Positions 4,239 to 26,353 of a stretch of DNA of 30,008 bases are shown here, piece after piece. The translations under genes were made by a program, and so were the position numbers. Source of the DNA: a virus. A model generated the notes under the pieces. That model had not been told where the DNA came from. It worked only from the letters and a program-made list of their open reading frames with translations, and did not search any database. The number at the start of each line of letters is the position of its first letter. The first letter of the stretch is position 1. The stretch covers positions 1 to 30,008 of the IMG/VR virus record IMGVR_UViG_3300035698_033375; one strand, written 5' to 3'.

Positions 4239-5873
4239 TTAAATGAAATAATTTTCATTAGCTAATTTATTCCAAGTGTCAATATTGTTACCCCAAACTA
4301 GCTTTATTTTAAAGGATAAACTTGTATTTCCTGTAATAGAGACATCTCTTGAATCTTGTTTGTAGCCTCTGTAGTTTGTTACGAGAGTATATTCACCTTC
4401 ATCAATTTCATTAAATTCATAATATCCAGTTTCTGTTGTGGTTTGAGAAATGTATACGTCACTCGGATAGTATAAATAAACGGTTGCACCAGTAACTATA
4501 CTCCCGCTTACAATTCCACTTAGAGTGTAGGTGGGCTCTTCAGTATCATCTATGTATGTAGGGGTTTCATATATTGGAACAGTTTCAACATATGGACTAT
4601 CCGATTCCACTTGAACAAATGTGGATAATAAATCAGAACCTGTAGTTGCACTTAAAATATCTGAGAAGGTAACTACGCTTTGGTCAACACCAAATAAATT
4701 ATTAATTGTTTTAATGTTTCCTATTCTATACCAAAAATTTTTGTTTGGTTTTAAAGGTGCGGATAGCTTTCTAAATACATCTTTTACTTCATAATCTATT
4801 CCCCAATCTCCACTTTCCAACCCTAGCATTTCCCTTGTATCTAAGGCAGAATCCTCTTTACTTAATGGATATGAGTATACCGTTCCTGAAAAGCTCATAC
4901 TATCCCCTGAACTATAAACAACTTGTAATAAATACTTATTGCCATCATCTACATCAGAAAAACGAAAAGTAGGCGTAAACGTATCTAGTTGACCACTCAC
5001 TAAAGGCTCTTGTAGTTTTGGTTTATTTGGAATTAAAAAATAAGAAAAGAAATTTCCTGCCACGCTTAAGCCAGAAAATGTCCCCGCTGTAATTGTATAG
5101 TTTACTATCGAAGTTTCTTCAACAAATGTTTTTTGAAAATCGTACTCATATAAACCGCTTTCATCACTATATTTGTAAAAATCAACATAATCTTCACCTT
5201 GAGTTCTTTCAAACATAAAGATTGTTGTAATAAAATATTGAGACCTATCTTCAAATAGTTGAAATTTATATGACCCTAAATTTTTATAACATTCATCTAA
5301 GGCTAAATCATAAATATTACTTGTTATTCCCGTAGTAGATGCTGTTATTGTTAAAATTGGTGTTTCTAATAGCGTTTCTACATTTGAATATGCATTATCA
5401 TAAAAATCATTTATATTGACATTGTTTTCTGTTAAGGTGGCCGTAGTTTTATCAAATTTATTTTTTTGATTATTTTCAGTAATTTCCTTTATAGAAAGGT
5501 TTTCTTTAGAAGCATCATTCAATTGAAGGTTCGAGGAGCTCTTTTGAAATGTCTTAAAGTCAATTTTATAGATATTATGAACAATTGTAGTTCCAGTGCC
5601 AAAACTGTCTGTATTGGCGCTAAAATTGAATCTGATGGAAGGTCTATATGTATTAGTGAATATAGAATTTATATCTTGTCCATAATAATTTAGCGTACCA
5701 CCTATTGTTGTATACATTGGGGTATCATATGCAAAGAGGCTAGTTTCCCCTACTTCTTTTTCAATCCACCTATTTGAATAAAATATTTGTGCATTTGACA
5801 AATCGCCTCCTGAAATCCTATTGTATTCATTTTGGACAAATATTTGTTTTATATCGCTATATTCTAAAATCAT
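4239..5873 (-). CDS. Tail/baseplate protein with carboxypeptidase-regulatory-like domain (544 aa)
   Basis: This large virion protein is best explained as a decorated tail or baseplate component. Residues about 445-528 form a recognisable carboxypeptidase-regulatory-like (transthyretin-type) beta-sandwich: it opens TYTLSGIVSGSIVTGATVYL, continues with the typical TTTETGYYEFNEIDEGEYTL hallmark, and ends in a SLSFKIKL strand. Residues about 285-400 look like a fibronectin-type fold (PTFRFSDVDDGNKYLLQV). The N-terminal half is polar and unrecognised. Such Ig-like modules in phage virions are usually surface-exposed and thought to bind carbohydrate or stabilise. The gene starts 10 bases after the 883-residue baseplate gene and shares its transcript. 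No signal peptide or membrane segment is present. Confidence 0.85.
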   Translation of the reverse strand: MILEYSDIKQIFVQNEYNRISGGDLSNAQIFYSNRWIEKEVGETSLFAYDTPMYTTIGGTLNYYGQDINSIFTNTYRPSIRFNFSANTDSFGTGTTIVHNIYKIDFKTFQKSSSNLQLNDASKENLSIKEITENNQKNKFDKTTATLTENNVNINDFYDNAYSNVETLLETPILTITASTTGITSNIYDLALDECYKNLGSYKFQLFEDRSQYFITTIFMFERTQGEDYVDFYKYSDESGLYEYDFQKTFVEETSIVNYTITAGTFSGLSVAGNFFSYFLIPNKPKLQEPLVSGQLDTFTPTFRFSDVDDGNKYLLQVVYSSGDSMSFSGTVYSYPLSKEDSALDTREMLGLESGDWGIDYEVKDVFRKLSAPLKPNKNFWYRIGNIKTINNLFGVDQSVVTFSDILSATTGSDLLSTFVQVESDSPYVETVPIYETPTYIDDTEEPTYTLSGIVSGSIVTGATVYLYYPSDVYISQTTTETGYYEFNEIDEGEYTLVTNYRGYKQDSRDVSITGNTSLSFKIKLVWGNNIDTWNKLANENYFI

Positions 5874-13177: not shown

Positions 13178-13723
13178 ATGTTATTATCTTTAGATATCAG
13201 TACAAGCTGCGTTGGATATGCAGTGTTTAGTGAAAAAAGAGCTCTCTTAGAAATGAACTATGTTAAATTTTCTAATAAAAAAACAATATTTGAAAAACTT
13301 GAACAATTTAAAGGAAAAATTGCGCATTTATCAAAGTTCGACATTACTGCGATAGCAATTGAAGAGCCTTTAAAAAAGTTTCAAGGGAAATATTCTTCAG
13401 CAAATACAATTGCTATATTGAATTTCTTTAACGGAATGATAAGTTCATTTGTTGCAAGTCATTTTAAATTAGAACCTGTTTATTATAATGTTAATTTTGT
13501 CAGGTCAAAGGCGTTTCCAAACCTAAAAATTAAAAAACAAGGAGCATCTTCAAAACATCAAGTGTGGGAATGTGTTGTAGGTTTAGAGCCACAAATTAAT
13601 TGGAAATATGGCGTTCGAAGCAGAAAACTAGTAGAAGAAAACTATGATATGGCAGATGCTTACGCTGTAGGAAAGTGTTATTTAATAATGATGAAAATTC
13701 AAAAAGCAAAATTAAATAGCTAA
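13178..13723 (+). CDS. RuvC-like Holliday junction resolvase (181 aa)
   Basis: This is a probable RNase H-fold endonuclease that cuts branched DNA during phage recombination and before packaging. The four acidic positions of RuvC-type resolvases are visible: D6 in the first strand (LLSLDISTSCVGYAVF), E62/E63 in IAIEEPLKKF, and D157 and D160 in YDMADAYAVG. The length of 181 residues matches the RuvC family (about 160-180). The start must be this ATG because the catalytic first strand begins at once. The ATG directly abuts the T-tract of the upstream hairpin, so the mRNA leader is at most about ten bases if the box in the hairpin loop is used. It begins the nucleic-acid block that continues with primase and the SbcD-SbcC fusion, replacing the role of T4 endonuclease VII. 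Confidence 0.88.
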   Translation: MLLSLDISTSCVGYAVFSEKRALLEMNYVKFSNKKTIFEKLEQFKGKIAHLSKFDITAIAIEEPLKKFQGKYSSANTIAILNFFNGMISSFVASHFKLEPVYYNVNFVRSKAFPNLKIKKQGASSKHQVWECVVGLEPQINWKYGVRSRKLVEENYDMADAYAVGKCYLIMMKIQKAKLNS

Positions 13724-13726
13724 TTG

Positions 13727-13758
13727 TTTGGTTTATAACTATAATATTTGTATTTTTG
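13727..13758 (+). promoter_or_regulatory. Host-type Bacteroidota promoter (TTTG-N20-TATTTTTG)
   Basis: TTTG at 13727-13730 and TATTTTTG at 13751-13758 are spaced by 20 bases, matching the -33/-7 promoter known in Bacteroidota (TTTG and TANNTTTG). Only six bases separate the -7 box from the ATG at 13765, so the expected transcript would start at or within a base or two of the start codon. Confidence 0.65.
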
Positions 13759-13764
13759 CATTAC

Positions 13765-14769
13765 ATGGATGACCAAAAATACATCATATTATCAATTCTG
13801 AAGAATTTTCTAGGCGAACCTAAAAGTTCTACCGATATAGAAAACAGGGAGCAATGGGAGTTTAATTGTCCCAGTGAAACTTGCAGAAATGATGTAAATA
13901 AACATAATCTTGCATATAATTCTGAGCACAATGTTTTAAAATGTTGGAAATGTAAGGAAAGTGGAATTATTCATAAATTTGTTTACAAATATGGTAGCAA
14001 AGATGATTATAAGCGTTTAAAGCAAATATTACCAGTTTATAATTCGAATTTTGCAAATATATTTAAAAAGCAAAAAATAAATCATAACTTAATTACATGT
14101 CCACTTCCTGATGGTTTTATTCCATTAAATAAAGTTATTAGTTCTGGAATGTATCGACAATCTTATGATTATGTAACAAATGTTAGAAAAATAACCCCAG
14201 AACAAATAGATTATTTCAAAATAGGCTATACGGAAATAGGGGATTATAAGAATAGAATAATCATCCCATCATTCAATGGTTATGGAAACGTCAATTATTT
14301 TGAAGCTCGTGCATTTTTGAAGAGAATGAGGCCAACTTATTATAAGCCAGATAAAAAAGCTTTTCCAAACAAAAATGTACCTGAAAAATATGATATTATT
14401 TTTAATGAGTATAATATAAATTGGGATTTGCCTATTTTCTTAGTGGAAGGTATATTTGATATGATTAGAATACCCAATTCAATCCCGATGTTAGGAAAAA
14501 CTCCATCTTGGCTTCTAATTTCAAAGTTAATTGAATATGGATGTACAATAGTAATTTGCGTAGATGAGGATGCATTTAAAGACGGAATGGAGATTTATGA
14601 GAAACTTTCGTCATTAGACTTAGAAGTTTTTTTTATTGACCTTTACAAAAAAGGTGACGTTTCTTATGTTTATGAAAAACAAGGAAACTCAGGAATAATC
14701 AAACTTATTAGTAGTAAACAAAAAATTGATTTAAGTTTTCAACTAAATAGAATGATGTTAAAAAAATAA
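13765..14769 (+). CDS. DnaG-type DNA primase with zinc-binding and TOPRIM domains (334 aa)
   Basis: This enzyme should make RNA primers at the phage replication fork. The N-terminal zinc-binding domain has four cysteines: C35 and C40 (CPSETC) and C60 and C63 (CWKC). The TOPRIM core follows: E228 in FLVEGIFD, then D267 and D269 in CVDEDAFKDG, with a further acidic residue D298 in KKGDVSYVY. A nucleotidyl-transfer region rich in basic and aromatic residues lies between (about 160-215). At 334 residues it is compact, like the T4 gp61 class, and has no helicase domain. A TTG at 13756 would add three residues, but the ATG fits the promoter spacing and normal usage. It lies three bases before the SbcD-SbcC fusion gene. 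Confidence 0.88.
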   Translation: MDDQKYIILSILKNFLGEPKSSTDIENREQWEFNCPSETCRNDVNKHNLAYNSEHNVLKCWKCKESGIIHKFVYKYGSKDDYKRLKQILPVYNSNFANIFKKQKINHNLITCPLPDGFIPLNKVISSGMYRQSYDYVTNVRKITPEQIDYFKIGYTEIGDYKNRIIIPSFNGYGNVNYFEARAFLKRMRPTYYKPDKKAFPNKNVPEKYDIIFNEYNINWDLPIFLVEGIFDMIRIPNSIPMLGKTPSWLLISKLIEYGCTIVICVDEDAFKDGMEIYEKLSSLDLEVFFIDLYKKGDVSYVYEKQGNSGIIKLISSKQKIDLSFQLNRMMLKK

Positions 14770-14772
14770 TTT

Positions 14773-17700
14773 ATGAAAATAGCACACTTAGCAGATATTC
14801 ATGTAAAATTTTCGAGTAGACATGATGAATATAGAGAGGTTTTCACACGTCTTTATAAAGATTTAAAAAGTCAAAAACCAGATAGAATTACTATTGTTGG
14901 AGATTTAAATCATCAAAAAATTAATATGTCACCAGGTTCATTAGATTTGAATGCGGAATTATTGGTTAATTTGGCTAAAATAGCTCCTTTAGACATCTTT
15001 CTCGGAAATCATGATATGAACCTTTCCCAAAAAGAACAAGGCGATACAATTAGTCCTATGTTGAAAATCATAGAAAAATTTTCTGAATTACTTTCTCCAA
15101 TGTTGAAAGCTAAGATGAATAAATCATATATTGTAAGCAAAGAAAATGTAGGTGATATAGATTTTTCAAACAAAGGAATTTATTTTTTCCCAGATACTGA
15201 TTTTTATAAGATTAATGAAAAATTAGTATATGGTGTTTACTCATGTAAAGATAATAAATTATTAACATTAAAGAAAAAAGAAAAAGATGTAAATTATATT
15301 GGATTTTATCACGGAAGAATTTATGGAGCAAGGGGAGATAACGGTTATGAACTTTTTGGAGACGACCTTGTTAATCCAGCTACATTTAATAATTTTGATG
15401 TTGTAATGTTGGGAGATATACATGAACATCAATCTTTTAGAGAGGATGATTCAATGGCTTATTGTGGTTCTTTGATACAACAAAATAATGGAGAGTCAAT
15501 TAATAAAGGTTACTTAATTTGGGATATAGAAAAAAAGACATTTCAAAGAAGATATATTCTAAATGATTTTGGATTTGCCAAAATTACAATTGCTAAAGGA
15601 GAATCTGTAGAAGAAAGAGTTGATAACATACAGTTCAGTAATAATAAAAAGAAAACTAAAATATATGTTATTTGGGAAGATTACGAAGAAAACTATTCTA
15701 CTGAAAAAGAGTCTCAAATAGCAAGATTAATAAAAGAAAAGCATGGATGTGAAGTAGTTACTGTAAGTTTTAGTGCTCTTGAGAAAGCTGTTGCTGAAAA
15801 TACCGATGTAGCAGATGCAAAAAACAAAGAAACATTTATTGAACAATTAGTAGAGTATGTTGAGGATATCGAAAATGACTTTGATGATGATTTAAAAGAA
15901 GAGTTGGTTACCTTTGCAAAAAAGACTGATGAAATACTTGAAATAGGCGAAGTTGTCACTGAAGTGAAAAATTGGGATATCGAAGATGTTGAAATTAGTA
16001 ATATTTTTTCTTTTGATGAAAAACCCGTAAAAATTCCATTTAACAAATTTCGAGGACTTACTGGTATTTTTGGACGTAACTATTCAGGAAAATCAAATAC
16101 GGTTAAAGCAATTGTTTGGGGGTTATATCAATATATTTTAGATGATGGCGATGCTAAAAAAATAATAAACATTTACACAACATCAAATAAAGGGTATGTG
16201 AAAATCAATCTTGTTATTGAGGGTGAGCGTTATAGAATATATAGGCAAGTAATTACTACATTAAAAAAAGATGGAACTACATCGAATAATTATCCTGTAA
16301 GTTTTGAAAAACTCACTTTTAATGAGGACGGAAAGGAGATGTGGGTATCTAAAATTTCAGATAAGAGAGCAAATGAAAACACAGAAGTAAAAAATTTGAT
16401 TATTGCAGCTATTGGTAGTGTAGATGATTTTACTAAAGTATCTCTTGAATCTCAAGGTGGAGATGGGAGTTATATTAATCTAAAACAACAACCAAAAAAT
16501 GACCTCATTAATAGATATGTTGGCTTAGAATTCTTCAGAGATAGATATGATTATGGAAATGATTTTTTAAAAGATGTTAAGAAAACACAGAAAACTTTAG
16601 GAAATATAGTTGAAGTTGAAGGTGAGGTCATCCAAATAAAAGTTCAAATAAACACTCTAAAAAAAGAAATACAAAAAATAGAAAAAGAAAAAACAGATGC
16701 GGAAACATTAAAAGATAAAATAGACGCTAATATTTTAGAAACAACAAAAAAACTAAAACCCATTTTGGAATATGAAGGTGGAGATGTTTTAACTATTGAA
16801 GAAATTAAAACAAAAACATCAAAAATAAATCAAGAAATAGAGTTTTCAAATAATCAAAAATCTGAATTGTTAGTATGGTTGTTTGGTAATTTTAAAAAAG
16901 AACTTTCCTTAGACCCTAATTTGACTTTTGAGGGTTTGACACAAAATTTCAACGAAGAAGATGAATTATTCCAAACAGAAAAGGATAAATACGTAAAAGT
17001 AGAAAAATGGATTAAAGAAAATTTGGCTCAAGAGTTGGTAAATGTTGAGGGATATGATGCTAAAATTAAAGAAATGGATTTAGAAGTAGGGCAACTCCAA
17101 GCAAAACTATTAACATATAAAGGGGAGCAATGTCCAACATGTGGCCACATAACCCAACAACCAGACCCTCAAAAGTATCAATTGTGTTTAATTGAGATTT
17201 CTGAAAAACAAGGTATTTCTAATTCTTACAGCCAGGCAATTACACAAAATACCAATGCAGCTACTTATAACAATAATATCACAATTCAACAAGGTAATTT
17301 GGCAGTTTTAAAAAATTCTTTAATAATTAGAAAAAACAATAAAGATGAGATAAAGAAAACAATAGACCTATTTATTAAATCTGAAAGTATAATTGAACAT
17401 AATAAAAACGTTGAAACCAAAACATCAGAATTGGATATAGTTAAAAGTCAAATTGTAACAAAAGAAAAGGAAATTGATAAAATTAGTCTTAATGCTGATA
17501 AAATTAAAAATAACAAAAAGGCTCAAAACTATAACTCCAATTTAAATGATAAATTAGAAGGGTTTCAAGAACAATCTAAAGGATATAAATTTTCAATTTA
17601 TAATTTCAACCAACAATTAGTAGAAAAGAATGGTGATTTGAGAATTGAGAAAAATAATCTAGAAAATTTTGAAAATAAATATAAAGAGATTGCTAAAGAA

Positions 17701-18243
17701 GAACGAAAATTTAAAATATATTCTTTATATCTTCAGGCCGTACATCGTGATGGAATTCCCGCAAGGATTATTAGAAAAAAGCTCCCAGTTGTAAATAATA
17801 AAATTAATAGTATTTTGAACTCGATTGTAGATTTCCAAATTCAATTAAAAGTATTACCAAACGGAGATGTTGTAGAAGAGTTTTATTTTAATGAAGATAG
17901 GTCGGATGCACTCCCTCTTTCTTCTGCTTCGGGCTCTCAAAAATTCATTTCAAGCCTTGTAATCAAAGATGCGCTTCATTACATAAGTAATCTTATAAAA
18001 CCTTCAATTAACATCATAGATGAGGGATTTGGTACTTTAGACGATGAATTAACGTCTGGAATAGTAAATGTTCTTTATTATTTAAAGAATAAATATAAAA
18101 ATGTAGTTGTAATCACTCATAGAAATGAAATTAAAGATTTTATGGACAATATAATTGAAGCATACAAAGATACAAGTTCAATTTCTCAAGAAATTTTGGA
18201 TAAAAATCCAAAAGCTGGGGTAACTAAATTAAATGTTGTTTAA
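14773..18243 (+). CDS. Fused SbcD-SbcC (T4 gp47-gp46 / Mre11-Rad50) nuclease-ATPase (1156 aa)
   Basis: One uninterrupted reading frame holds both halves of the SbcCD complex, which trims and processes DNA ends in recombination-dependent replication. The N-terminal metallophosphoesterase has D8 and H10 (ADIH), GD at 43-44, GNHD at 78-81, H180 and GDIHEH at 214-219. After a linker (about 280-400), the ATPase starts with Walker A GRNYSGKS (434-441). Long coiled-coil arms follow, with the zinc-hook C-P-T-C at 787-790 near the apex. The return arm leads to signature LSSASGSQ (1049-1056), Walker B IIDE with D1083 and E1084, and D-loop GTLDDE. SbcD, Mre11 and gp47 are normally separate proteins of 340-400 residues, and SbcC/gp46 a separate subunit, so the fusion is unusual. 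It is co-transcribed with primase. Confidence 0.92.
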   Translation: MKIAHLADIHVKFSSRHDEYREVFTRLYKDLKSQKPDRITIVGDLNHQKINMSPGSLDLNAELLVNLAKIAPLDIFLGNHDMNLSQKEQGDTISPMLKIIEKFSELLSPMLKAKMNKSYIVSKENVGDIDFSNKGIYFFPDTDFYKINEKLVYGVYSCKDNKLLTLKKKEKDVNYIGFYHGRIYGARGDNGYELFGDDLVNPATFNNFDVVMLGDIHEHQSFREDDSMAYCGSLIQQNNGESINKGYLIWDIEKKTFQRRYILNDFGFAKITIAKGESVEERVDNIQFSNNKKKTKIYVIWEDYEENYSTEKESQIARLIKEKHGCEVVTVSFSALEKAVAENTDVADAKNKETFIEQLVEYVEDIENDFDDDLKEELVTFAKKTDEILEIGEVVTEVKNWDIEDVEISNIFSFDEKPVKIPFNKFRGLTGIFGRNYSGKSNTVKAIVWGLYQYILDDGDAKKIINIYTTSNKGYVKINLVIEGERYRIYRQVITTLKKDGTTSNNYPVSFEKLTFNEDGKEMWVSKISDKRANENTEVKNLIIAAIGSVDDFTKVSLESQGGDGSYINLKQQPKNDLINRYVGLEFFRDRYDYGNDFLKDVKKTQKTLGNIVEVEGEVIQIKVQINTLKKEIQKIEKEKTDAETLKDKIDANILETTKKLKPILEYEGGDVLTIEEIKTKTSKINQEIEFSNNQKSELLVWLFGNFKKELSLDPNLTFEGLTQNFNEEDELFQTEKDKYVKVEKWIKENLAQELVNVEGYDAKIKEMDLEVGQLQAKLLTYKGEQCPTCGHITQQPDPQKYQLCLIEISEKQGISNSYSQAITQNTNAATYNNNITIQQGNLAVLKNSLIIRKNNKDEIKKTIDLFIKSESIIEHNKNVETKTSELDIVKSQIVTKEKEIDKISLNADKIKNNKKAQNYNSNLNDKLEGFQEQSKGYKFSIYNFNQQLVEKNGDLRIEKNNLENFENKYKEIAKEERKFKIYSLYLQAVHRDGIPARIIRKKLPVVNNKINSILNSIVDFQIQLKVLPNGDVVEEFYFNEDRSDALPLSSASGSQKFISSLVIKDALHYISNLIKPSINIIDEGFGTLDDELTSGIVNVLYYLKNKYKNVVVITHRNEIKDFMDNIIEAYKDTSSISQEILDKNPKAGVTKLNVV

Positions 18244-19398: not shown

Positions 19399-19428
19399 TT
19401 GTTTTTTGGATATTTTTTCTTATATTTG
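19399..19428 (+). promoter_or_regulatory. Host-type promoter (TTG-N19-TATATTTG)
   Basis: TATATTTG at 19421-19428 exactly matches the Bacteroidota -7 box TANNTTTG; a TTG at 19399-19401 lies 19 bases upstream. Sixteen bases follow before the ATG at 19445, giving a short A-rich leader. It should drive the unit from 19445 to 23775. Confidence 0.6.
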
Positions 19429-19444
19429 CAAAAAAGGATTTAAA

Positions 19445-20356
19445 ATGGCAGAAATTAACAAGGATGATTTGCGTAAGCAGCTTAAAGAAGAGAGAAAAGG
19501 TAATATTCACATTAGCTTCAGCGAATTTAGCCTCTACAATCAATGCCCGCAGCAACATTTGATTTACAAGTACTTAGGTCTTGATGAACGACCACCTTCA
19601 ATTCATTTGTATTTTGGAAACGCAGTTCACGAATCTATTGAGATGGCCGTAAAAGAAGGTTATGATATTGATGGTCGTGTTAAATATTTCCGTGACAAGT
19701 TCAAAACTGACATGATGGATAACATGATGGGAACTAAAGATTTCGATGAAACTGAGAACTTCTTAAATCAAGGGGAGAATATTTTACGAATTCTTGATGT
19801 AAAAGAAGTTTTGGGCGGAGATGATGTTTTTTCAGTTGAAGAAGAGCTTTATGAGCCTATTTTTAAAATATTTAGATTTAAAGGATTTATTGATGTTACT
19901 TCCCAAAACCCCCTAACTAAAAGATATCGAATAACAGACTGGAAAACATCTGGAGAAAAATGGTCTTTAAGTAAAAAATTAAAGGATAAAATATTTATGT
20001 GTCAGATGAGACTTTATAAATATTTTTGGGCTAAAAAAAATAATATCCCATTAGACCAAATAGATTGTCGTTATGTTGTTCTAAACAGATTAAAGAATAA
20101 AAAGGACCCTAATGGCGGCTTCGGAGAGGTTCAAATAGTTGACATTGAATCGTCTGAAGATGAGATTTTAGAGGCATTGAATATATTAGCTGAAACTATA
20201 AGAAAGATACATATAGCCAAAGAGTTTCCAAAGGTTAAGTTTACTGGAAACGAGAGGTGGGGATGTATGTTTTGTAAATTTAAAGGCGGAATTCATCCTC
20301 TATGTAATTCTAAATACAATCAATATTTAGAGATATTGGCTGAACATGGAAAATGA
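19445..20356 (+). CDS. Cas4/RecB-like PD-(D/E)XK nuclease with Fe-S cysteines (303 aa)
   Basis: This is a probable DNA exonuclease of the RecB/Cas4 group. The PD-(D/E)XK core is complete: H62 in FGNAVHESIE, D150 in RFKGFIDV, D165 and K167 in YRITDWKTSG, and the Q187-x3-Y191 motif in QMRLYKYF. One cysteine near the N-terminus (C34 in NQCPQQ) and three near the C-terminus (C274, C277 and C287) are placed as in Cas4, AddB and related enzymes that hold a 4Fe-4S cluster around the nuclease domain. There is no adjacent cas gene or repeat array, so a phage recombination role is favoured over CRISPR adaptation. A TTG-initiated longer version from 19406 would include the promoter and is rejected. It heads the unit with three unknown genes and an SNF2 helicase. 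Confidence 0.88.
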   Translation: MAEINKDDLRKQLKEERKGNIHISFSEFSLYNQCPQQHLIYKYLGLDERPPSIHLYFGNAVHESIEMAVKEGYDIDGRVKYFRDKFKTDMMDNMMGTKDFDETENFLNQGENILRILDVKEVLGGDDVFSVEEELYEPIFKIFRFKGFIDVTSQNPLTKRYRITDWKTSGEKWSLSKKLKDKIFMCQMRLYKYFWAKKNNIPLDQIDCRYVVLNRLKNKKDPNGGFGEVQIVDIESSEDEILEALNILAETIRKIHIAKEFPKVKFTGNERWGCMFCKFKGGIHPLCNSKYNQYLEILAEHGK

Positions 20357-21837: not shown

Positions 21838-23775
21838 ATGGCAAAAAAGAAAAAAAAAGAAGTTGTAGAAATAATAGTTAAAATTAGAAAATTAAAAGTT
21901 AACTATGAACTTAGATATGATTTTTTAAAAATCTTATCTGAATACATTAAACGCTTTCCTAAAGAACATAGAAAAGTGCGCAAAGATAGTGTAATTGGCA
22001 TGGATGGGAAGCCTAAGGATGACTGGGTAAGGACTGTTAGCAACGCAAGAATTGGAGAAGTTATTTCTTTTCTTATAGATAATAAAATACGTTTTGCTTT
22101 CGAAAATATTACTAAGGATGTAATGCAAGAGTTGCAAAATCAGTTTTTAGAAAGACAAAGAAAGATTTCTGAGGTTTTAAAGCTAAAAGCAGAAATGCTT
22201 GATGTTAGTGGTGAGAATTACTCATTTATGAAAATTCCCCCGTATGAATATCAAAAAAAAGCAATTAAGTTTTTTGAAATTAATGAAGGAAGAGCAATTC
22301 TTGGAGACCAGCCTGGAGTGGGAAAAACTTGCCCCGCCTTTGCTTATGCTATTAAACACAACTTAAGAACACTGATAATTTGTCCAGCTTCATTAAAATT
22401 AATGTGGAGAAAAGAGATTTTAAAATTTACACCTAAGAAAGCTTTTGTCTATAAATTTAAGCCAAAAAAGAAAAGTAAAATTGTAGCACATAAGAAAGAA
22501 GAGTCTATGTTTCATATTGTTAATTATGAATCTGTAGAAACGTACATCAAAATTGAGTATAGCCACAAGTGTAAGGGCAATATGCTGCAGCCTAATGGCA
22601 AAAATGGAGTTTGTGGATGGGAACAAGTAGATTTGAAAAAAACCTATAAAAAGTGCCCCATATGCGAAAATTCAGGAACAATAAAAAACCGAGCTGTCGG
22701 CCTTGTTGGATTTAAAGATGATATGCATATACCATTAAATCCCGAAGACTATGATTTGATTATAATAGATGAGTGTCATAGAATTAAAGAAATGACAACC
22801 GAATGGACAAAAATTATCCACAAAGCCTTTAAGGTAGTTCCTAAAAAAATATTACTTTCTGGAACTGTAATTAAGAGTAGGCCAATGGAGTTCTTCTCTT
22901 CTTTAAATTTTGTTTTTCCTGAAGAGTGGAAAAATTATCATGACTTTGGGGTTCGATATTGTGCTGGCTATGAAAGTGGCTATGGATGGGATTATAAGGG
23001 TGCATCTAATTTAGAAGAATTATTTACTCGAGTTTCTCCGTATTTTTTAAGGAGATTAAAGAGAGATGTTTTGACCGAATTGCCAGAAAAAACCTATTTG
23101 GACATTCCAATAGAATTAACTGATGCGGAATATAGAGAATATGTAAAATTAGAAAAAGCAGTAAAGAAAGAAATTATTGATGGTAAAGAGGTAATAAAAG
23201 AAGAGGGATTTTTAGAGAAAGTACATAAGCTAAAGGGCTTTACTGGTAGAGCTAAGATGAAAAGAGCAATTGAAATGATTGAAGATGTTGTAGCGACTGG
23301 AGAAAAAGTCGTAATTATTTCAGATTATCAAGAAATTGCTGAAGGTATATTTGCTCACTTTGGAGAGCAAGCAGTCTTACATACAGGCTCCATGTCCGAT
23401 GAAGATAAACAAGAATCTGTAGAAGCATTTCAAGAAGACCCAAAAATTAAAGTATTTTGCGGAATGGTTATAGCATCGGGGGTTGGAATTACCTTAACTG
23501 CATCAAGCAAGATGTATAGAATAGGTTTTGCTTGGACTCCTGCTGATATGGAGCAAATTGAAGACCGTATCCATAGAGCTTCCGCAACTGCTGATAAAAT
23601 AGAAATTATAACTTTAATTTGTCAAGATACAATAGATGAAGATATCAGTGAGCTATTAGAAGATAAAGCCTTCATTGTCACGAAGGCTTTAGATAATAAG
23701 GAATATGAAAAAAATTCTACTGTTTATAATGAAAGTATTTATAAAGAACTTTTAAAAAGAATGTTGACTAATTAG
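21838..23775 (+). CDS. SNF2-type DNA helicase/translocase with inserted zinc ribbon (645 aa)
   Basis: This is a superfamily 2 ATPase that would move on DNA and remodel forks or branched intermediates, similar in role to T4 UvsW. A Q-like motif (YEYQKKAI, from 136) precedes Walker A GDQPGVGKT (156-164). Motif II is DECH (311-314) within LIIIDECHRIKE, motif III is LLSGT (339-343), and the C-terminal RecA domain ends with GVGITLTASSKMYRIGFAW and the arginine-finger motif QIEDRIHRASA. Between motifs Ia and II an insertion carries four cysteines (C245, C259, C273, C276) arranged as a zinc ribbon. Residues 1-130 are basic and unassigned. The order and the D-R-I-H-R motif fit the SNF2/SMARCAL1 branch. 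It ends the unit begun at 19445 and overlaps the end of a converging membrane-protein gene by eight bases. Confidence 0.9.
   Translation: MAKKKKKEVVEIIVKIRKLKVNYELRYDFLKILSEYIKRFPKEHRKVRKDSVIGMDGKPKDDWVRTVSNARIGEVISFLIDNKIRFAFENITKDVMQELQNQFLERQRKISEVLKLKAEMLDVSGENYSFMKIPPYEYQKKAIKFFEINEGRAILGDQPGVGKTCPAFAYAIKHNLRTLIICPASLKLMWRKEILKFTPKKAFVYKFKPKKKSKIVAHKKEESMFHIVNYESVETYIKIEYSHKCKGNMLQPNGKNGVCGWEQVDLKKTYKKCPICENSGTIKNRAVGLVGFKDDMHIPLNPEDYDLIIIDECHRIKEMTTEWTKIIHKAFKVVPKKILLSGTVIKSRPMEFFSSLNFVFPEEWKNYHDFGVRYCAGYESGYGWDYKGASNLEELFTRVSPYFLRRLKRDVLTELPEKTYLDIPIELTDAEYREYVKLEKAVKKEIIDGKEVIKEEGFLEKVHKLKGFTGRAKMKRAIEMIEDVVATGEKVVIISDYQEIAEGIFAHFGEQAVLHTGSMSDEDKQESVEAFQEDPKIKVFCGMVIASGVGITLTASSKMYRIGFAWTPADMEQIEDRIHRASATADKIEIITLICQDTIDEDISELLEDKAFIVTKALDNKEYEKNSTVYNESIYKELLKRMLTN
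23664..23691. other. Perfect 10-bp stem-loop inside the helicase gene
   Basis: TAAAGCCTTC (23664-23673) and GAAGGCTTTA (23682-23691) pair perfectly around an 8-base loop, in the coding sequence about 85 bases before the helicase stop. No T-run follows on either strand, so it is not a standard terminator. It also lies just past the end of the converging minus-strand gene. Confidence 0.6.
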
Positions 23776-25450: not shown

Positions 25451-26353
25451 ATGTTTGTACAATTAGGCGATAGAAATAAAGATGTAGCAGAAGTTCAGAA
25501 ATTATTATCTCTTTTAGGATATGATTTAATAATTGATGGAGACTTTGGTGCCAAAACAAAAAGGTCAGTAAGAGCCTTTCAAAAAAGATTTAATTTAACA
25601 GTTGATGGTATAGTTGGAAGCAATACTTATACAGCGTTAAAGGCCGCTCAAAAGAAAACATCAAAAGAAAGTTCTGATATTTTAGATAGCGTTGATTATG
25701 GCGGCTTAGAAATAAACACTGATTATGAGCTGCACCCAGTTCAATACATTAAACAAGTTACTAATAAAACTCAAATATACATTCATTTTACTGCGGGTAG
25801 ACAAAGTGCAAAAAACACAATTTCTTATTGGGGGGCTGATGAACCAAAAATCGCAACTGCATTTGTGCTCGATGGCGATACTGGAATACCTTATCAGGCA
25901 TTTCATCCAGATTATTGGAGTTGGCACTTAGGGGCAAAAGGAACTAATGGTAGATTAGACAAAGCTTCTATTGGAATAGAAATATGCGCATTTGGCGGCC
26001 TTAAAAAGAAAAACGATAAATATTATGCATGGCCTACCAATTGGACTACAGAGGTTAATAGTGAAAAGGTATATCATCTTGATGAAGAATTTAGAGGATT
26101 TAAACATTTTTATTCATACACTGACTTGCAAATAGAGAATCTAGAAAATCTTTTATGTTTTCTGATAGAAAAATATGACATTAAAGTTCAGGAGAGTTTT
26201 GATTTAGATTGGTTTAGTTATAATCCAGAGCTGTTCAAAAAGACTTTGCCTGGAATTTGGACACATACAAATGTTAGAAAAGATAAATCAGACAGCTATC
26301 CTGACCATAGACTAATTGAGCTTTTAAATAAACTTGCTAAAAAATATAACTAA
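25451..26353 (+). CDS. Endolysin: PG-binding domain plus N-acetylmuramoyl-L-alanine amidase (300 aa)
   Basis: This is the phage lysis enzyme that cuts the amide bond between muramic acid and the stem peptide. Residues 1-67 are a peptidoglycan-binding type 1 domain (LGDRNKDVAEVQKLLSLLGY, then IDGDFGAKTKRSVRAFQKRF and VDGIVGSNTYTAL). An amidase type 2 (T7 lysozyme-like) domain follows at about 95-290: H112 in IYIHFTAG, WHLGA at 158-162, E177 in IGIEI, then H272 in WTHTNVR, and K279 and D281 in a K-S-D box. H112, H272 and D281 are the likely zinc ligands and K279 the catalytic lysine. There is no signal peptide or membrane segment, so export needs a holin. It is first in a unit of three genes driven by a late-type box. 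Confidence 0.92.
   Translation: MFVQLGDRNKDVAEVQKLLSLLGYDLIIDGDFGAKTKRSVRAFQKRFNLTVDGIVGSNTYTALKAAQKKTSKESSDILDSVDYGGLEINTDYELHPVQYIKQVTNKTQIYIHFTAGRQSAKNTISYWGADEPKIATAFVLDGDTGIPYQAFHPDYWSWHLGAKGTNGRLDKASIGIEICAFGGLKKKNDKYYAWPTNWTTEVNSEKVYHLDEEFRGFKHFYSYTDLQIENLENLLCFLIEKYDIKVQESFDLDWFSYNPELFKKTLPGIWTHTNVRKDKSDSYPDHRLIELLNKLAKKYN

Follow-up and report, generated by a model that had tools for sequence, protein, structure and literature searches.

A phage gene joining Mre11 and Rad50 in a single frame, with relatives cut at one site inside the nuclease domain

A stretch of viral DNA 30,008 nucleotides long, taken from IMG/VR record IMGVR_UViG_3300035698_033375 and referred to here in its entirety as the window, contains an open reading frame in which a first-pass annotation recognised homologues of both Mre11 and Rad50. 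The locus raises the question of whether the two are truly joined in one protein and, if so, how such a protein would serve the phage. The frame (14773–18243, plus strand) opens with ATG and runs for 1156 codons without an internal stop, a length expected by chance with a probability of about 10^-45 at the base composition of the window.

Analysis of the encoded protein revealed an Mre11/SbcD nuclease at residues ~1–390 followed by a Rad50/SbcC ATPase at residues ~401–1156 (Table 1). Pfam assigns Metallophos to residues 1–218 (3.3e-8) and SMC_N to residues 403–1137 (5.2e-11), and PHROG_77, 'SbcC-like', spans residues 287–1141 (2e-33). Among sequences from the PDB, Mre11 of P. furiosus and T. 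maritima matches residues 1–269 and 15–252, respectively, and Rad50 matches residues 1046–1140. Foldseek searches with an AF2 model retrieved T. maritima Mre11 (3qg5/2q8u, ~300 columns) and Rad50 (7zr1, ~860 columns). The full-length model is of moderate quality, with a mean pLDDT of 65 and low values near the Walker A and Walker B loops, and secondary structure alone was therefore taken from it. Profiles, PDB sequences and fold thus match both families, in agreement with the annotation, and we assign the protein as an Mre11–Rad50 fusion with high confidence.

Table 1. Features of the fused gene and of its neighbours in the window
Feature	Position	Strand	Basis
RuvC-like Holliday junction resolvase	13178..13723	+	PHROG_159 1e-10; 71/95 loci
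DNA primase, 3 bases upstream of the fusion gene	13756..14769	+	PHROG_47 8e-28; 85/95 loci
Fused Mre11–Rad50 (SbcD–SbcC) gene, 1156 aa	14773..18243	+	Profiles, PDB sequences, Foldseek
Mre11/SbcD calcineurin-like nuclease core, residues 1–263	14773..15561	+	Pfam Metallophos, phmmer, invariant columns
Core ligands D8, H10, D44, N79, H80, H180, D215, H217	within 14773..15561	+	
GDIH motif, residues 214–217, Asp215 for His206	15412..15423	+	Alignment; R555 parallel (PMC3175470)
Hairpin loop FREDDSMA, residues 222–229, intact in the window; cut site of relatives	15436..15459	+	
Probable Mre11 capping region, residues 264–340	15562..15792	+	Low-confidence model, Mre11 anatomy
Helices 355–366 and 372–388, probable Rad50-binding helix-loop-helix of Mre11	15835..15936	+	AF2; order per PMC3175470
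Linker of ~12 residues, 389–400, between the halves	15937..15972	+	AF2 secondary structure
Rad50 N-lobe of ATPase head, residues 401–585	15973..16527	+	Pfam, PHROG, alignment, AF2
Walker A, GRNYSGKS	16072..16095	+	
Coiled coil, residues 586–1015	16528..17817	+	Alignment, AF2
Zinc hook, CPTC	17131..17142	+	
Rad50 C-lobe, residues 1016–1156	17818..18240	+	PDB sequence match, alignment, AF2
Signature, LSSASGSQ	17917..17940	+	
Walker B, IIDE	18013..18024	+	
His1116 of Rad50 C-lobe	18118..18120	+	
PD-(D/E)XK exonuclease	19406..20356	+	Pfam PDDEXK_1 3.9e-17; 30/95 loci
SNF2-type helicase	21838..23775	+	PHROG_62 4.9e-94, Pfam SNF2-rel_dom; 23/95 loci

The annotation had placed all the motifs of both families in this one frame. 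The frame and the motif positions hold: the nuclease motifs are D8-x-H10, G43-D44, G78-N-H-D81, H180 and G214-D-I-H217, and those of Rad50 lie at residues 434–441 (Walker A), 787–790 (CPTC), 1049–1056 (signature) and 1081–1084 (Walker B). The last nuclease motif, GDIH, is nevertheless non-canonical, since in a phmmer alignment Asp215 occupies the position of His206 of P. furiosus Mre11; Mimivirus R555 has the same substitution, at D242 (PMC3175470). The protein has the calcineurin-like fold and metal ligands of Mre11/SbcD, with this one ligand differing, and the ABC head of Rad50/SbcC, interrupted by a coiled coil that bears a CxxC hook. The ATPase residues are invariant in the aligned fused sequences; the zinc-hook cysteines are missing in the distant protein of phage Mel-JY01.

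Among 14 aligned fused sequences, D8, D44, N79, H80, H180 and H217 are invariant. H10 is present in the window protein and is replaced by Gln in many of the others. Together, Asp215 and the loss of H10 in many relatives could mean that nuclease activity is changed or weak. If it had been lost altogether, the fusion would serve chiefly to tether or clamp DNA, driven by ATP, a proposal to which the Asp in both the window protein and R555 and the Gln in many relatives lend some weight. We consider it unlikely, because the six invariant ligands are kept across 23–57% identity, Asp is able to bind metal and H10 of the window is intact. The window protein is predicted with moderate confidence to be an active nuclease. 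The DxH motif is ADIQ in a large subgroup of fused proteins, which includes those of loci L004–L008, L010, L011, L013, L014, L017, L058, L060 and others.

How the halves are joined bears on how the chain might assemble. On the basis of the T. maritima complex, fusions were predicted to carry a helix-loop-helix followed by a linker of 9–12 residues (Yoshida et al., PMC3175470). The window protein is a single polypeptide with Mre11 first, and at moderate model confidence it has a region of the size of the capping and helix-loop-helix elements (residues 264–388) and a linker of ~12 residues, with the first Rad50 strand beginning at residue 401 in the AF2 model. This order and spacing support, without proving, the idea that the fused chain would assemble like the two-subunit complex.

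A stop and a start between the two halves might have been lost through sequencing or assembly error, the case that the annotation itself regarded as fatal to its reading. The window is a metagenomic assembly, and single breaks do occur elsewhere in the gene in relatives. A first search returned 16 related loci and a profile search at least 80, the two sets partly overlapping, and nearly all have one frame across both halves. Looking for the same architecture in relatives, as the annotation had advised, thus yielded more than 50 distinct viral proteins, 24–58% identical, with both halves in one frame. This open junction frame, shared by independent contigs, excludes a lost stop in the window. 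Moreover, third-position GC is low throughout residues 201–500, so the junction bears no sign of a frame change, and the stretch from residue 235 to residue 475 has no internal ATG. The artefact is scarcely credible. As for the breaks themselves, the fused genes of L033, L067 and L083 contain stops or frame breaks elsewhere, which are probably sequencing errors or decay.

The working complex might instead consist of ordinary separate subunits, if the fusion were cleaved or if Rad50 were also started internally. There is a GTG at residue 398, close to where Rad50 begins, and relatives tolerate being in pieces; but this GTG, the one candidate start given the lack of an ATG, is weak, with only three of six Shine–Dalgarno matches, and we reject an internal Rad50 start. 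Separate Mre11 and Rad50 frames were, moreover, seen in just a single clade of five tagged loci (support 100/98). Such an arrangement in the window is very unlikely.

In a tree of 97 nuclease cores, built on ~210 columns, the uncut fusion accounts for 57 distinct rows, and the window clusters with L021, L024, L023 and L015. The coiled coil of L023 is ~95 residues longer than that of the window protein, apparently through internal repeats of coil segments, the extra coil lying at protein residues ~690–790 and 960–1040. Of 95 related loci, 85 have a homologue of the window primase next to the gene and 71 have a RuvC-like gene there. We conclude that these genes form a stable replication and recombination cluster of one broad phage assemblage, which bears out the annotation's suggestion that the fusion marks a phage lineage. 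Short contigs in metagenome-assembled genomes (L101, L102 and L104, from Deltaproteobacteria, Nitrosopelagicus and Bacteroidetes bins) also have the gene, two of them adjoining a primase; these are probably phage DNA binned into MAGs. Elsewhere in the window, positions 4239–5873 (minus strand) encode a 544-residue protein with a weak CarboxypepD_reg match (1.3e-7) and otherwise without a family match, and positions 25451–26353 (plus strand) encode an endolysin-like protein with a peptidoglycan-binding domain followed by Amidase_2.

The annotation's statement that Mre11 and Rad50 are separate in other systems does not stand. A study of 2011 described fusions in Mimivirus (R555), Bacillus phage 0305phi8-36, C. 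kluyveri plasmids and Deferribacter, and among eukaryotes in slime moulds, moss, a diatom and green algae; its authors inferred that fusions abound in aquatic viruses, of which many are probably phages (PMC3175470). To this known architecture the window gene adds a further case. BFVD likewise contains viral proteins of fused length, from Tupanvirus, Tetraselmis virus, Yasminevirus, Pyramimonas virus and Tenacibaculum phages pT24 and PTm1, which are the top BFVD fold matches of a related nuclease model, that of L178 (see below). The likeness to R555 extends to an N-terminal Mre11, a C-terminal Rad50, a helix-loop-helix-sized region and short linker between them, the Asp in place of His206, a viral source and frequent occurrence in aquatic samples (PMC3175470). 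The window gene differs in lying in a tailed-phage operon with primase and RuvC, and its product is ~200 residues shorter than the 1351 residues of R555. Microcystis phage Mel-JY01 (WWT39521) and the huge-phage records LR756501 and LR756508 are homologous in both halves at 25–28% identity; Mel-JY01 and LR756508 also have a primase homologue upstream, whereas the gene of LR756508 is cut after GDIH and has a nuclease gene in the gap. The gp47/gp46 pairs of T4 and Aeh1 are likewise phage Mre11/Rad50 proteins, from adjacent genes and with a presumed role in recombination-dependent replication, but they are two polypeptides with an intact GHxH motif (GHYH in Aeh1 gp47). No T4-like record matched the window protein by tblastn at 1e-5. 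The role of T4 gp46/gp47 in recombination-dependent replication is established.

Overall, we put at roughly 85% the probability that the window gene encodes a phage Mre11–Rad50 (SbcD–SbcC) fusion of the viral R555-like type, acting as a self-contained (Mre11–Rad50)2 end-processing machine for recombination-dependent replication. Two chains would most likely dimerise through their Mre11 halves, giving, because one gene encodes both halves, an (Mre11–Rad50)2 assembly of fixed stoichiometry. ATP would close both Rad50 heads on a DNA end and gate the nuclease, which would probably resect or trim the end. The machine would probably supply substrates for recombination jointly with the primase, RuvC-like resolvase, exonuclease and helicase encoded nearby, most likely in the part that gp46/gp47 play in T4 replication.

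The annotation had also allowed that the protein might always be cleaved into two. Division into two is indeed seen among the relatives, but it falls within the nuclease domain, at a point equivalent to residues 222/223, rather than between Mre11 and Rad50. The tree has 36 such rows out of 97, all distinct and from several lineages, in which the gene lies in two frames with a single common cut site, directly after GDIH and ahead of the [A/S]GSLIQQ strand, corresponding to the loop REDDS (residues 223–227) of the window protein. The C-piece carries Rad50 in most cut rows, 32 in number, a count that includes L112 and L114, whose contigs end before the C-piece and which were assigned by kinship; Rad50 is a separate frame in five tagged rows. 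The cut loci are L010, L011, L017, L018, L077, L108–L120, L122, L125–L132, L137, L140, L143 and L144, and, further, L147–L150, L153–L156, L158, L162, L169, L171, L175, L180, L182–L184, L186 and L187.

The pieces carry matching extensions. The N-piece ends in a tail of ~25–35 residues with the motif ..EL..Y...GWE.., in which GW is invariant and Tyr nearly so, and the C-piece begins with a head of ~12–22 residues, M..K.IKIKR.., a basic strand. In the 32 distinct tail/head pairs compared, every tail is acidic, averaging a net charge of −4.9 with none exceeding −1, and no head is acidic (mean +3.3). In L156 four bases separate the stop from the following ATG, and the gap is empty. In L178/L179 (3413–4363), tail and head are joined in frame within an uncut Mre11 piece, with Rad50 in a separate downstream frame. 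The AF2 model of L178 is confident (pLDDT 89.8, pTM 0.87), and its module consists of a strand (200–211), a helix (212–220), a strand (224–227), a loop (228–232) and a strand (233–244), this loop being the cut point in other relatives. The N-piece of L115 (2552–4186), which has the GW tail, contains an in-frame, intein-like insertion of ~300 residues just after GNHD; it begins with Cys, ends with Asn before Cys and has a weak Intein_splicing match (0.0014).

Among the matches listed, a nuclease-type gene or its remnant occupies the gap in ~8 distinct loci: one family occurs in L018, L155, L169, L186 and L017/L073, with a remnant in L011, and L077 has an unrelated nuclease-like gene. The gap of L017 contains a methylase, and 22 marine loci among the matches listed have a glycosyltransferase-like gene of ~310 residues there. 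Related gap frames in L017 (5712–6179) and L010 (9053–9526) were also seen; that of L010 weakly resembles a prohead core protease (Peptidase_S77, 0.032), a surprising cargo in a split recombination gene.

Genes-in-pieces have been reviewed for T4-like phages, with Aeh1 nrdA/mobE and T4 gene 60 with mobA as examples (PMC2988022). The cut relatives share with these a conserved cut site in an active-site region, a nuclease gene in the gap and short tails on both pieces, and differ in that another host gene is interrupted. By eye, the cut-Mre11 tails gave no clear match to those of Aeh1 NrdA-A/NrdA-B. Work by Crona et al. in 2011 is said to have found the tails on the Aeh1 pieces to be needed for assembly. 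The best reading of the cut relatives is that they are genes-in-pieces that homing nucleases have created or spread. Other explanations of the cut were set aside: no Rfam match at the gathering score indicated a group I or II intron in L010, L011, L017 or L018, and against a split intein the tails are too short, the L010 N-piece and L178 carry no intein profile, and L178 has tail and head in one frame, where they make up a small folded module in the model.

As to its history, close sisters in the tree differ in being cut or uncut (L112/L031 and L114/L040). A single origin of the cut with repeated loss fits an AU test that does not reject one clade of all tagged rows (p = 0.078), but parsimony requires 8–9 changes, and the starred branches force at least seven. 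The account that we hold somewhat better than even is that the Mre11 hairpin has been cut repeatedly by a mobile nuclease cassette. Such a cassette would cut the fused gene within the active-site hairpin in many phages, leaving an acidic strand-helix-strand tail on the N-piece and, at the start of the piece comprising the C-terminal part of Mre11 and Rad50, a basic strand. Tail and head would form a split docking module whose parts rejoin in trans through strand complementation. At this single site, cuts would have arisen or been exchanged on several occasions, the gap later taking nuclease, methylase or glycosyltransferase-like cargo, and the module could be re-fused in frame, as L178/L179 suggest.

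A search for the putative docking module gave one real match per genome in 23 of 26 records, and in the genomes searched it occurred at no other site; two additional weak matches proved on reading to be a stretch of low complexity and a 23-residue match that did not convince. Searching with a degenerate DNA pattern of the basic head returned three already known contigs and none further, and tblastn of the tail peptides in named phages found LR756508 and none further. No description of a cut Mre11 was found in the literature searched, which comprised few subscription papers. Genes-in-pieces as such are known; the single-site cut with matching, putatively docking tails appears to be the new part.

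The fused family is widespread among environmental phages, and a one-gene Mre11–Rad50 of fixed 1:1 stoichiometry is a handy model of the complex. If our account of the cut is true, the relatives display a tolerance of insertion into an active site that depends on neither intein nor intron, here in a conserved DNA-repair enzyme. They form a natural set of uncut genes, cut genes with or without a mobile gene, and re-joined ones, so that how an enzyme survives a break through its active site would become testable, and the cut relatives may yield short docking pairs.
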